A stretch of 64,000 nucleotides of DNA, taken from Gemmatimonas sp. (GTDB lineage: Bacteria > Gemmatimonadota > Gemmatimonadetes > Gemmatimonadales > Gemmatimonadaceae). Positions 9,602-50,385 of this stretch are shown one piece after another; the stretch's first letter is position 1, and each line of letters begins with the position of its first letter. The position numbers were made by a program, and so were the translations under genes. The stretch is from the NCBI RefSeq assembly GCF_021298855.1, contig NZ_JAJTHI010000007.1:1-64000 (forward strand). The letters run 5' to 3'. The notes beneath the pieces are model-generated. The model saw only the letters and a list, made by a program, of their open reading frames with translations. It ran no database searches and was not told the origin of the DNA.

Positions 9602-9762
9602 CTTTGGGCTTCGGACTTCCGAGGACTTCGGGCCTCCGATTTCGGACGTGCATCGGACCTCCGAGCTCGGATATCGGACTTCCGAGGTCGGATAGATGTC
9701 CGAGGTCCGAAACCGGAGGGAGCGGTCGGAAGTCGGAGGCCGGATGCTGCGGCGCCTCCCTT
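9602..9762. repeat. Array of short palindromic TCGGA/TCCGA repeats
   Basis: About 160 bases made of degenerate palindromes with the core TCGGA-CY-TCCGA, for example tcggacttccga (twice), tcggacctccga and gtccgaggtccga, spaced by 5-15 bases. It lies between the ligase and helicase genes, so it interrupts an otherwise tightly packed cluster. The same words recur at 48361-48605. It encodes no convincing protein: frames through it consist of Arg/Gly/Ser/Pro repeats. It could form hairpins that stop or process the transcript, or be a mobile or recombination-prone intergenic repeat. Confidence 0.8.
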
Positions 9763-15286: not shown

Positions 15287-18200
15287 GCGATCGGCCCCTT
15301 GCCCTTCGCCTTGCTGATCACCCCGGGCACGTTGTTGGCCTTGAGCAGGGCGTTGAACGCGGGCACGTCCACCGTTTCGATCGCCTCGACTTCGGCGCGA
15401 ATGCCGGCCCACACCTTCTCCAGTTCGGCCAGCCGCTCCTTCACCGGCTGCGTGAGGCGCGTGTTCCCCTCCACCTGACCCAGCAGGAAGCCGTACTGGC
15501 CGTTGATGCCGTTGGCGTAGTTGATGATGTCCTGCCCGTTGGCCGCCTTGGTAGTGAGACGCGGATCCATCTTGTCCAGCTTCCCCGTGAGCGCGCGTCC
15601 TGCCTTGCCGATCGTGTCGGCGGCCGTCGTTTCGCGCGCGCGCGTCACGTACCCCTGCACCTGCGTCTTCACATCGCGCAGTCGCAGCACCGACTCGTGA
15701 ATCTCGTTGATGCGCATGGCCAGCAGGTTGGCCACGCTGTCCCGCTCGGCGATCACCGCCGTTGGGGCGTCAATGCGGGGGTCCTGCTTCACCACGAGCG
15801 GCTGCGACAGCACCGTCGTGCCCACCGTGAGGCGCACGGTGTAGTTCCCCGGCGAGACGCGCGCGCCGCCGTCACCCGGTGCGCCGAACAGCATGACGTT
15901 GCCGATGCGGGCCGGCATCGCGCGCCGCAGGTTCCACGTGAGGGTGTTGAGCCCCGGCTTCACCGCCAGACGGCTCGTCGAGTCGCGCGTGGCGAAGCTG
16001 CGCACCACGGCGCCCTTGGCGTCGAGGAACTCGAGGGAAACGGCGGTGGCGCTGTCGGGCGCCGTGGCCAGGCGGAAGTACACCGTGGCCCCGTTGGGCG
16101 GATTCTTCCCCGCATTGGCCGGGGTACCAAAGCCTCCGCCGCCGGCGAAGAGCACCGCCTCGCGCGGCGCGTACAGGTGCGCCTTGGCCTGTTCGAGACT
16201 GTCGGCGTGCTGCCGAATGACCGACAGGTCGTCGAGAATCCAGAAGGCCCGTCCCTCGGTGGCCGCAATGAGGTCCCCGTGCTTCACCTGCAGGTCGGTA
16301 ACGGGCACCACCGGGAAGTTGCTGCGCAGCGGCAGCCACTGGGCACCGGCATTGTACGACAGGTACACCCCCGTTTCCGTGCCCGCATACAGCAGCCCCT
16401 TGCGCACCGGGTCCTCACGCACGACACGCACCGGCTCCCCGTCACGCAGCCCGTTCACGATGCGCGTGAACGTGGCGCCGTAATCACGTGACACGAACAT
16501 GTGCGGCGTGGGATCGCCCAGACGGTCCTTGCGGAACGACACGTAGAGGGTGCCCGCGTCGTGCGGCGAGATGGCGATTTCGTTCACGAGTCCGTCGCCC
16601 CACGCGGCGGGCGTGATGTTCGTCCAGCTCTTGCCCCCGTCACGGGTGCGCTGGATGAGCCCGTCATCGGTGCCCACATACATCGTGCCCACCTCGTGCG
16701 GCGACTCCTCGATCACCACGATCGTGGCGTACACTTCGCCGCCGGCGCCTTCGTTGGTGATCGGCCCGCCACCCCACCCCTGACGGCTCTTGTCATTGCG
16801 CGTGAGGTCACCCGAGATCGGCGTCCAGCTCTGGCCGCGATCGGTGGTCCTGAACAGCACGTTGCCACCGTGGTACACCACCTTGTCGTCGTGCTGCGAC
16901 ACCTCGATGGGCGCCGTCCAGTTGAAACGGTACCTGGTCTTGTCGGTGGGCTCCGTGAGGTTCATTTCCGGCCACGGCATGATCGTGCGCGTGAGCCCCG
17001 TCTGCGCATCCTGCTCGTCGATCAGCCCCTGGTAGCAGCCGCCGTACACATAGCGCGGATTCTTCGCGCTCACTCCCATGTTGGCGCTTTCGCAGCCGGG
17101 GCCCTCGTTCCAGTCGCGGATGCCGATCGCGCCGCCATCACTGCGCGACTTGATGATCACGCTCGTATTGTCCTGCTGGCCGCCGTACAGCTTGTAGGGG
17201 AACGCGTCGTCCACCGCCACGTGATAGAATTGCGACGTGGGCTGGTTGTCCTGTGTGCTCCAGCTCTTGCCACCGTTCAGTGAGATCGATGCGCCGCCGT
17301 CGTTGGCATTGATCACGTAGCGCGAATCGCGCGGGTTCACCCAGATGCCGTGATTGTCACCGTGCGTGGCGGGAACGACGGCAAAGGTGCGCCCACCGTC
17401 GGTGCTGCGCAGCAACGGGGCGTTGCTCACCCACACGGCGTCGGCGTTCTGCGGATCGGCGGTGATGTGCATGTAGTACCACGAGCGGGTCTGGATGAGC
17501 CGGTCGCCGTTCACCAGGCGCCAGCTCTTGCCGGCATCATCGCTCCGGTAGAGGCCCCCGTTCTCCGCCTCCACGATGGCGTACACGCGGTCGGGATTCG
17601 CCGGGGACACCGACACGCCGATCTTGCCCATCAGCTTCGGCAGCCCGTCGCTGAGGCGGGTCCACGTGTCGCCGCCATCGGTGCTCTTCCAGAGGCCGCT
17701 CCCTGCGCCGCCCGAGCGCACCATCCACGGCGTGCGCTGATGATCCCAGAAGGCCGCGTAGAGAATGCGCGGATTGGTGGCGTCCATGCTGAGGTCACTC
17801 GCGCCGCTCGTCGCGTTGGTGCCCTTGAGCACCTGCGTCCAGGTGCGTCCGCCGTCGGTGCTGCGATAGATGCCGCGCTCCGCGCTCCCCTGCCAGCGAT
17901 CGCCCTGTGCCGCGACATAGACCACGTCGGGGTTCCCCGGATGCACACGCACCGCCGAGATCTGGCGCGACGCTGCCAGCCCGATCCTGGACCACGTCCG
18001 CCCCTGATCGGTGCTGCGGTACATCCCGTCTCCGTACGTGCTCGACTGCCCGCGAATCGCGTGCTCGCCGGTGCCCACGTAAATGACGTTCTCATCGCTC
18101 GGCGCCACGGCAATCGCCCCGATGCTGCTCGACGTGAAGAAGCCGTCGGAGATGTTGCGCCAGTTGGTGCCGGCATCATCGGTGCGCCACAGGCCGCCCC

Positions 18201-47679: not shown

Positions 47680-48222
47680 TCACACGCTCAGCGGTACCCG
47701 CTCCACCGTGCCCGTCAGCGTGGCGTTGCCCACATTCACGAAGAGCGTCCCGTCGGTGACCGACAGGTCGAGCGACAGGCGGCGATCGAGCCGCTCGACG
47801 AGGGCATCCACCAGGGCGCGATCGAGCACATGGCAGACAATCTGCTCGACCTTGTGAATGCGCGCCCCCTGCAGTTGTCGGAGCCACACGGTGGGATCCT
47901 TGTGGGTGTAGACGATCACGTGCGGCGCCGCCTTGCTGGCCTTGTGCAGCCGTGCCGCGTCGGGAAGCCCGATCTCGATCCAGTGGGTGATCGTACCCGT
48001 CAGGTCGCGTACGCTCACGGTGGGATCATCGGGATCGGACACCCCCTTGGAGAAGGCCATCCCTTCGCGATACTCGAGGCAGTAGGCGAGGAGGCGCGCA
48101 ACGAAGTACTCCGGCGCCTCCGACGGATGCATGGCCATGCGGAACGCGAGCGACTCGTACACGCCGCGGTCCACGTGGGCGAGTTCCACCTGCAGGGTGT
48201 ACATGGTGCTCGTCAGGGCCAC
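47680..48222 (-). CDS. YaeQ family protein
   Basis: Protein of 180 residues matching YaeQ: MYTLQVELAHVDRGVYESLAFRMAMHPSE, LLAYCLEYREGMAFSKGVSDPDDP, WIEIGLPDAARLHKASKAA, HVIVYTHKD. The fold resembles restriction-endonuclease-like proteins, with Glu/Asp/Lys arranged as in PD-(D/E)XK nucleases, but its role is not settled. GTG start at 48222 has ggagg seven bases upstream. It lies 111 bases upstream of the TfoX gene on the same strand. Confidence 0.92.
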   Translation of the reverse strand: MALTSTMYTLQVELAHVDRGVYESLAFRMAMHPSEAPEYFVARLLAYCLEYREGMAFSKGVSDPDDPTVSVRDLTGTITHWIEIGLPDAARLHKASKAAPHVIVYTHKDPTVWLRQLQGARIHKVEQIVCHVLDRALVDALVERLDRRLSLDLSVTDGTLFVNVGNATLTGTVERVPLSV

Positions 48223-48360
48223 GACGTTCCTCCGCACGGCCTACCGGCACCGCTGGCGTGACCGCGGTGCGCATGAGAGGGGCACGCACTCCCGGGGACA
48301 ACAGTGAACATGCTGAGGGGGCTGATCGTGGGAGAGGAAGGGCGCGAACGTCGGCAGTGC

Positions 48361-48411
48361 CGGACGTCGGAGTAGCCCGGACGTCGGAGTAGCCCGGACG
48401 TCGGAGTAGCC
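48361..48411. repeat. Three tandem copies of a 17-bp unit
   Basis: The unit cggacgtcggagtagcc is repeated exactly three times (48361-48377, 48378-48394, 48395-48411); a fourth, diverged copy begins at 48412. It belongs to the same TCGGA/TCCGA word family as the array at 9602-9762. Confidence 0.9.
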
Positions 48412-48413
48412 CG

Positions 48414-48605
48414 AACGTCCGAGGCCGGATGGATGCCGGAGGTCGGAGGCCGGAGACCGCAGTCGGAGGTCCGAGGCCGGATGCCCTGCGCGTACAGCAC
48501 GGGCCGCGTATTCATCCGGCCTCCGACTTCGGACCGCCGTCTCCGGCCTCCGACCTCCGGCATCCATCGGACCTCCGACGTCCGAAATCCGACGTCGGAA
48601 ATCCG
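48414..48605. repeat. Large imperfect inverted repeat built from TCGGA/TCCGA words
   Basis: Arms of about 68 bases (48414-48483 and 48513-48580) flank a 29-base loop. Part of each arm, 28 bases long (48429-48456 and 48540-48567), is a perfect match; the remainder matches with few differences. Beyond the right arm the same words continue to 48605. It fills the 404-base spacer between the yaeQ and ilvE genes (both minus strand) and shows no believable reading frame. A transcript would fold into a very long hairpin. Confidence 0.88.
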
Positions 48606-48626
48606 GCTTCCCCAATTCCGTTCAGC

Positions 48627-49553
48627 TCACCGGCAGTACGTCAGCCATCCGTGCCGGTCTTCGATCTGGCCCTTGACGATGCCCAGATACTCCTGCTGCA
48701 GCCGCTTGGTGATGGGCCCCACCTTGCCGGCGCCGATCGTGATCTTGTCGATGCTGCGCACGGGGGTGAGCTCGGCAGCCGTGCCGGTAAAGAACACCTC
48801 GTCGGACATGTACAGCATTTCGCGGGGAATGTGCAGCTCACGCACCGGGATGCCCGCGTCCTGCGCCAGCTGCATGATGGTGGCGCGGGTAATGCCGCCC
48901 AGGATGCTGCCGTCGAGGGGCGTGGTGATGAGCGTTCCCTTGGACACGACGAACACATTCTGCCCCGACCCTTCGCTCACCACCCCACTCGGGGAGAGCG
49001 CGATGCCCTCGGCGTACCCGTTGGCGAGCGCCTCCATCTTGATGAGCTGCCCGCTGAGGTAGTTGCCGGCGATCTTGGCCATGGCCGGAATGGTGTTGGG
49101 CTGCACGCGATGCCAGCTCGAGATGCAGGCATCCACCCCGGCATCGAGCGCCTCGTCGCCCAGATAGGCTCCCCACGGCCAGCAGGGGAGGTAGGTCTCC
49201 ACCGGCGCGCCAATGGGCACCATCCCGGCCGTGCCGTAGCCGCGCACGACCATGGGGCGCAGGTAACAGGCGTCGAGCCCGTTGCGCACCACGAGTTCGC
49301 GCGAGGCCTCCACCAGCTGCTCCATCGTGTACGGCACTTCCATGCGGTAGATCTTGCACGAATGAAAGAGCCGCTCGAGATGCTCGCGCAGCCGGAAGAT
49401 CGCCGGACCGCGGGGCGTGCTGTAGGCACGAATGCCCTCGAAGGCGGACGATCCGAACTGCACGGAGTGACTGAGCACGTGAATCGTGGCGTCGGCCCAC
49501 GGAATGAAATGGCCATCGCGCCAGATCCACTGCGTCTCGGTGATGCGGCTCAT
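48627..49553 (-). CDS. ilvE: Branched-chain amino acid aminotransferase
   Basis: Fold-type IV PLP aminotransferase of 308 residues. Landmarks: WIWRDGHFIPWADATIHVLSH, GSSAFEGIRAYSTPRGPAIFRL, YLRPMVVRGYG, the PLP lysine in AMAKIAGNYLSG, EGSGQNVFVV, DGSILGGITRATIMQLA and DEVFFTGTAAELTPVR. It interconverts branched-chain amino acids and their 2-oxo acids using glutamate. Start at ATG 49553; no strong Shine-Dalgarno is seen. It lies 40 bases downstream of the SDR gene and may be part of that operon. Confidence 0.94.
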   Translation of the reverse strand: MSRITETQWIWRDGHFIPWADATIHVLSHSVQFGSSAFEGIRAYSTPRGPAIFRLREHLERLFHSCKIYRMEVPYTMEQLVEASRELVVRNGLDACYLRPMVVRGYGTAGMVPIGAPVETYLPCWPWGAYLGDEALDAGVDACISSWHRVQPNTIPAMAKIAGNYLSGQLIKMEALANGYAEGIALSPSGVVSEGSGQNVFVVSKGTLITTPLDGSILGGITRATIMQLAQDAGIPVRELHIPREMLYMSDEVFFTGTAAELTPVRSIDKITIGAGKVGPITKRLQQEYLGIVKGQIEDRHGWLTYCR

Positions 49554-49593
49554 GTGTGGTGGTGCTGAGGGAGCGGAGGTGACGGAGCGGTGA

Positions 49594-50385
49594 TCAGACG
49601 AGCGACTTGACGGCACCACCGTCCACCAGGACGGCCTGCCCCGTCATGAAACCGGACCGCGCAGAACAGAGGAAAGCTATCACCGACGCCAGCTCCTCGG
49701 GGCGCCCCACCCGCCCCAACGGGGACTCGCTCGCCCAGCCGGCGAAAATCGCCTCCTGCGACTGCCCCGTGCGGCGCGAGGTGGCGAGCGCCAGATCATC
49801 CAGGCGCTCCGTGGCCGTGAACCCCGGCAACACCGTATTCACCGTCACGCCGTCCTTGCCCACGTCATCGGCCAGCGTGCGCAGGAAGCCGGTGACCGCC
49901 GCGCGCAGGGCATTGCTCAACACGAGGGATCCCTGCGGGCGCCGGACGGCCAACGACGTGATGGCGATGACGCGCCCCCACTTCTTCTCCTGCATGGCCG
50001 GCACGAAGGCGCGCGTGAGCTCCACCACGCTGCGCAGCAGCAGGTCGCTGGCCGCGCTCCAGGCCGTCCAGTCGTGCGACAGGGGCGCACCCGTTGGCGG
50101 GCCACCCGTGTTGCACACGAGAATGTCCACCCCTTTGGGATACGCGGCGCGCGTGCGCTGCACCACGTGCTCGATGCCGGCCATGGTGGACAGGTCGGCC
50201 TCGAGCGCAATGACGGTCACCCCGAGGGCGCTCAACCGGCTGCGTGCCTCGCGAATGGCGGCGCCATCGCGCGAGCAGATGACGAGATCCACCCCCTCGC
50301 GCGCCAACTCCTCGGCCGTGGCGTAGGCAATGCCCCGACTGGCACCGCAGACGAGCGCCACCTTCCCCTGGATGCCGAGATCCAT
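49594..50385 (-). CDS. SDR family oxidoreductase with atypical active site
   Basis: Short-chain dehydrogenase of 263 residues. The nucleotide loop is CGASRGIAYATA, NxGG is CNTGGPP, and the end has GQAVLVDGG. In the position of the catalytic Tyr-x-x-x-Lys it has LVLSNALRAAV, so Tyr and Lys are missing, while the preceding Ser (ITSLAV) remains. This LSN-type variant occurs in a recognisable SDR subgroup whose reaction is not well defined. Overlaps the cupin gene by one base (TGATG). No clear pathway from neighbours. Confidence 0.9.
   Translation of the reverse strand: MDLGIQGKVALVCGASRGIAYATAEELAREGVDLVICSRDGAAIREARSRLSALGVTVIALEADLSTMAGIEHVVQRTRAAYPKGVDILVCNTGGPPTGAPLSHDWTAWSAASDLLLRSVVELTRAFVPAMQEKKWGRVIAITSLAVRRPQGSLVLSNALRAAVTGFLRTLADDVGKDGVTVNTVLPGFTATERLDDLALATSRRTGQSQEAIFAGWASESPLGRVGRPEELASVIAFLCSARSGFMTGQAVLVDGGAVKSLV

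Follow-up and report, generated by a model that had tools for sequence, protein, structure and literature searches.

The closest described systems to the hairpin studied here are the REP, BIME and REPIN sequences, which are likewise dispersed and extragenic, occur as inverted doublets that fold into hairpins, and have species-specific sequences (PMC3116915, PMC8266576). In REPINs, compensatory changes on both sides of the hairpin have been described (PMC3116915, PMC8266576). However a REP or REPIN is a palindrome of 20-50 nt with a GTAG tag, whereas the hairpin that we found in the window (the whole 64,000-nucleotide stretch of Gemmatimonas DNA analysed) belongs to a family whose arms measure 70-100 nt and consist of degenerate heptads. 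REPs and REPINs number hundreds to thousands of copies, compared to at least ~20-30 in the hairpin families described here, and their RAYT gene is bordered by the same repeat, whereas the window's family has no link to the local RAYT. The family alignment contains no GTAG-type tag common to the cores, and the window copy has GTAG solely in its outer 17-mers, not at the core foot. Because the tag, copy-number and RAYT tests all failed, we do not file the family as REP.

Intrinsic terminators offer a second comparison. Like them, the hairpins lie ~10-50 bp behind stop codons, in related families often between convergent genes, and are GC-rich with a purine-rich 5' side and a pyrimidine-rich 3' side. 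The window family differs in having a stem several times longer, and both a consensus scan and the sequence of the window copy itself revealed no U-tract terminator and no T-run directly after the stem. A third comparison is with heptanucleotide tandem repeats, of which the STRRs of cyanobacteria are an instance. These share with the window's family a 7-bp unit, an intergenic position, restriction to certain lineages and the gain and loss of units, but they are identical direct repeats, whereas the units of the window's family are degenerate and form a pair of inverted arms that have a conserved core. Heptameric repeats are described in Xanthomonas and Nostoc (PMC4692102), and TAACTGA heptamer repeats in Beggiatoaceae (PMC4679880). 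Finally, PMC8794818 and PMC7202029 concern quasipalindromes homogenised by template switching, which the window copy resembles in having arms identical over 30 nt and a mosaic of two arm types. What these papers describe is a mutational process, whereas here it would act inside a dispersed repeat family.

The hairpin behind ilvE and its family

The hairpin occupies much of the spacer between ilvE and yaeQ and lies near the ilvE stop codon. The features of the locus, together with a second copy elsewhere in the window, are:

9628-9747, no strand assigned: second family copy in the window, more degenerate; unrelated spacers at this place in G015 and other species
47680-48237, minus strand: yaeQ (PF07152), which follows ilvE in the same orientation
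48345-48411, no strand assigned: outer array at the hairpin foot, three exact copies of CGGACGTCGGAGTAGCC with a degenerate copy ahead; a lineage-specific expansion, missing in the sister species
48412-48483, plus strand: left arm, purine-rich, degenerate heptads (YCSGANN)
48428-48457, plus strand: left half of the perfect 30-nt block, partner 48539-48568
48484-48512, no strand assigned: loop, 29 nt, varying from copy to copy
48513-48584, plus strand: right arm, pyrimidine-rich, pairs with the left arm
48539-48568, plus strand: right half of the perfect 30-nt block
48585-48606, no strand assigned: outer heptads toward ilvE (TCCGACG TCGGAAA TCCGGCT)
48627-49619, minus strand: ilvE-like branched-chain aminotransferase (Aminotran_4), stop codon ~20 bp from the hairpin

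The three exact 17-bp copies noticed in the sequence-only reading were confirmed, with starts at 48361, 48378 and 48395 (span 48361-48411). The large hairpin which that reading placed next to them is also real, although its arms measure 72 nt rather than 68 bp; they are 88% complementary and are separated by the 29-nt loop. Likewise, the perfect block within the arms is present but extends over 30 nt (GATGGATGCCGGAGGTCGGAGGCCGGAGAC) rather than 28 bp. The RNA fold of the hairpin has an energy of -210 kcal/mol compared to -143 +/- 5.4 in dinucleotide shuffles (z = -12.4), and a hairpin scan of the 64-kb window detected a single other hairpin, which was far weaker (55 vs 166 bits). The window has no Rfam match and no tRNA, and we rejected a known RNA family and a tRNA-linked element on these grounds.

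The window hairpin is a member of a dispersed intergenic family, found with a covariance model at at least ~20 places in G000, the genome of the window, and at least ~17 places in its sister species G015. The model was made from eleven cores and the copies were collected by searches and from sequence stretches, so that these copy numbers are lower bounds. The core pattern had 27 matches in G000 and 25 in G015. Among 393 other genomes of the phylum this pattern revealed no such family, three of them having one single mismatch-hit each, and a GTDB scan of 85,000 species genomes, in which records near the window's own are possibly hidden, gave only 11 scattered single matches. As the pattern scans produced no convincing match beyond G000 and G015, we rejected a wide distribution. 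A search of open-access literature turned up no description of such repeats in Gemmatimonas, a bacterium of soil and water.

Two further observations concern the family's surroundings. Four contigs of G000, C14, C54, C12 and C49 (L153, L142, L151 and L154), terminate within family copies, and because several contigs end inside copies the hairpin repeats appear to break the G000 assembly. G034, which belongs to another genus of the same taxonomic family, has short CCTCCGA tandems, a word in common with the hairpin family, but the element itself is absent; in L032 and L038 of this genome the tandem CCTCCGA heptads adjoin a GGGGTCTGACCCCATTG-type motif.

Heptad arms and the age of the family

Degenerate YCSGANN heptads follow one another along each arm, with a core that recurs (GGATGNATGCC ... 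GGAAACGGCGTTCGGA) and its mirror-image partner, and the loops are unconserved among copies. Mean lag-7 identity is 0.49 in the copies compared to 0.26 in flanking controls; at this level (~0.5) the units are degenerate and, set in inverted arms, they are not head-to-tail near-identical repeats. Among indels of at least 3 bp between orthologous copies, 7 bp is the commonest size, and in one ortholog pair units of 7 and 14 bp have plainly been gained or lost. The 17-mer array is an outer expansion in the window copy, and the sister's copy is without it.

The two arms of the window copy are identical at 49 of 55 positions (6 differences) with a 30-nt identical run, compared to 39-45 of 55 (10-16 differences) and runs of just 9-18 nt in ten other copies. 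Three arm-diagnostic positions are equalised in the window copy, which is a mosaic of both arm types; many other copies keep their arm-specific differences. Gene conversion between the arms, as proposed from the sequence alone, fits the long run, the 49/55 identity and this loss of arm-specific differences, and we infer that the arms were homogenised through hairpin-templated repair or template switching. Together, the heptad-sized indels and the unusually identical arms of the window copy suggest that slippage was combined with arm-templated repair.

Between orthologous copies we observed 9 double complementary changes, compared to 1.4 expected by independence. Because the ilvE copy alone supplies five of the nine, this excess only weakly suggests selection for arm pairing.

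Comparison of flanks placed nearly all G000 copies at orthologous places in G015, with the placement of four copies at contig ends only partly judged. The flanks are mostly 88-94% identical, and the hairpin elements diverge about as much as the surrounding intergenic spacers. At 78% identity over the element, the ilvE copy belongs to the more diverged orthologs. For two G000 copies (9628-9747 of the window and C6:32534) the corresponding spacer of G015 is hairpin-free, and because the spacers there are wholly different, insertion, deletion and replacement are indistinguishable at these sites. Since nearly all copies are orthologous in G000 and G015, the family is old relative to the split of the two species. 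A recent origin, which had been suggested by the perfect matching of the arms, does not fit, because the same spacer of the sister species holds a related hairpin and nearly all other copies are orthologous.

Unrelated hairpins at gene ends in other clades

In the ilvE-yaeQ spacer, G015 has a related hairpin without the 17-mer expansion, and G021 and G020 have unrelated ones, so that three unrelated hairpin families occupy this spacer (G000/G015, G021 and G020). In G021 the spacer holds an inverted array with words around TCAGGGG, and in G020 another hairpin, CTCTCCAACTCTCC. Among the 30 genomes of the genus searched, the G021 hairpin is confined to G021, with at least 29 copies that have sharp ends, and the G020 hairpin is confined to G020, at at least ~15 places. 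Scanning 400 kb of G001 for hairpins yielded a fourth family, GAGGATCGGAGGATC, common to G001, G022 and G004 only. We looked for further slots shared between families and rejected all except ilvE-yaeQ; four other loci overlap in neighbourhood but their spacers differ. Because other clades carry their own unrelated families in similar places, the comparison suggests that gene-end hairpins have repeatedly been made anew in this genus.

On the 3' side of ilvE in several other species, an ordinary compact hairpin, in some with a T-run, occupies the position that the long one has here, as judged by eye. Some species of the genus have an ilvE-yaeQ spacer of just 7-43 nt without a hairpin, and because of this any function of the hairpin would not be essential in those species. 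By eye, some G020 copies adjoin or surround terminator-like hairpins. In L053-L056 (G008, G017, G005 and G028) the ilvE-yaeQ spacer has a small reverse-strand gene, by eye for a GlsB/YeaQ-type membrane protein, which is missing from this spacer in G000 and G015. A smaller hairpin with a AACCCGGAACTGATCAGTTTCGGGTT core occurs in G001 and G028 (L250:18193-18270; L279:15388-15455 and 17414-17505), with stems that differ complementarily, and is possibly a further family shared across species.

To score placement we used a home-made gene caller based on codon hexamers, with only approximate gene starts, and took spacers of 100-600 bp drawn from 864 kb as the background. Three families lie between convergent genes more often than this background predicts: that of G021 (odds 13.6, p=3e-8), that of G020 (p=1e-4) and that of the G001 clade (p=0.02). 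The window's family, with few copies scored for orientation, has no significant convergent bias (2 of 11, p=0.25). With the four families pooled, the median distance is 25 bp for 3' ends (n=92) and 104 bp for 5' ends (n=44). All four share a polarity, being rich in purines in the 5' half and in pyrimidines in the 3' half. The window hairpin, ~20 bp behind the ilvE stop codon, is positioned as a terminator would be. Placement at 3' ends is also expected from mere insertion tolerance.

Competing explanations and the preferred reading

The window hairpin is a copy of a dispersed, non-coding extragenic hairpin family that is private to two sister Gemmatimonas species. With moderate confidence, we interpret the family as REP/BIME-like, with members that, if transcribed, would form transcript ends in both directions. 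A copy transcribed from either side would fold into a snapback with purines on its 5' side and pyrimidines on its 3' side, marking where the mRNA of the adjacent gene ends, and this snapback might pause or terminate the polymerase or block 3' exonucleases. In the window, the copy would serve the 3' end of ilvE and oppose read-through into yaeQ. The arms may grow and shrink by heptad slippage, and their complementarity could be upheld by hairpin-templated replication or repair together with weak selection for pairing.

The strongest rival is that the copies are tolerated neutral debris, in which a microsatellite-like heptad array became a quasi-palindrome by template switching, was copied by chance recombination and persisted where it did least harm, without function. 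The 7-bp indels between orthologs, the strong lag-7 signal, the homogenised arms of the window copy and a divergence about equal to that of the intergenic flanks all agree with such a history. However, the copies of one family have a common core with fixed words, unlike chance microsatellites, four unrelated families have the same polarity and 3' placement, and complementary double changes are in excess. We consider this explanation doubtful.

It seems unlikely to us that the family is a non-autonomous mobile element, either a REPIN or a palindromic MITE, that relies on a RAYT or another transposase acting in trans. The sequence-only reading had raised a mobile element, and the dispersed family bears out that part of the idea; no target duplications and, by PF01797, no transposition machinery were seen with it, and the RAYT is bordered by a different repeat. 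For the other suggestions of that reading, a recombination site and a processed RNA, the analysis produced no evidence. In favour of mobility are the dispersed copies with a defined core, the sharp ends in the G021 family, the inverted doublets as in REPINs, the two G000 copies without a hairpin counterpart in G015 and the presence of RAYT genes in both species. Each of these genomes has a single Y1_Tnp (RAYT-like) gene (L085:1140-2080 on contig C30 of G000; L084:1200-2100 on C6 of G015), with inverted tandem 12-mer arrays around GGGGTCAGAGCT on both sides. These arrays differ from the hairpin repeat. Moreover, by a test that uses one Pfam model, PF01797, the hairpin-bearing G020, G021, G001, G022 and G004 have no match, whereas a matching gene is found in G005, G008, G017, G013, G023 and G024. 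We rejected a RAYT-driven REPIN because the RAYT is bordered by the GGGGTCAGAGCT 12-mer and is undetected in the other hairpin-bearing species. Because nearly all copies are orthologous, there is no clear recent transposition, and target duplications or a clean empty site are unreadable since the spacers of copy-less species are too diverged. Genes between close copies also look ordinary; a transposase between neighbouring copies was rejected, as the ORFs there appear by eye to encode an ordinary isomerase-type protein (G021, L227) and ribosomal protein S4 (G020, L239).

That each copy acts as a structured regulatory RNA or as an attenuator for its own downstream gene, here yaeQ, is in our view very improbable. 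The fold is very stable and, read from ilvE, the hairpin falls in the 5' region of yaeQ, but it lacks an Rfam match, is palindromic and folds on both strands, its copies adjoin unrelated genes, and related families often lie between convergent genes, without a downstream gene to regulate. An attC-like or dif-like recombination or attachment site is the most improbable explanation, as attC sites resemble the element only in outline, as long imperfect hairpins behind stop codons, whereas the copies here stand singly at conserved chromosomal gene pairs, in the same places in two species, and not in cassette arrays.

The preferred reading of an extragenic hairpin family at transcript ends can be extended to the genus, in a form that we hold only tentatively and regard as rather unlikely: its clades would repeatedly swap their 3'-end hairpins for unrelated, clade-private families of long hairpins composed of short degenerate words and amplified by a non-RAYT mechanism, and these families would assume the task of ending transcripts at the same borders between genes. 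If this is right, extragenic hairpin families turn over among close relatives in a little-studied phylum, where one could trace step by step how they arise, spread and come to be used as transcript ends. The ilvE-yaeQ slot, common to three unrelated families, would be a direct test case for distinguishing tolerated junk from recruited 3'-end signals.
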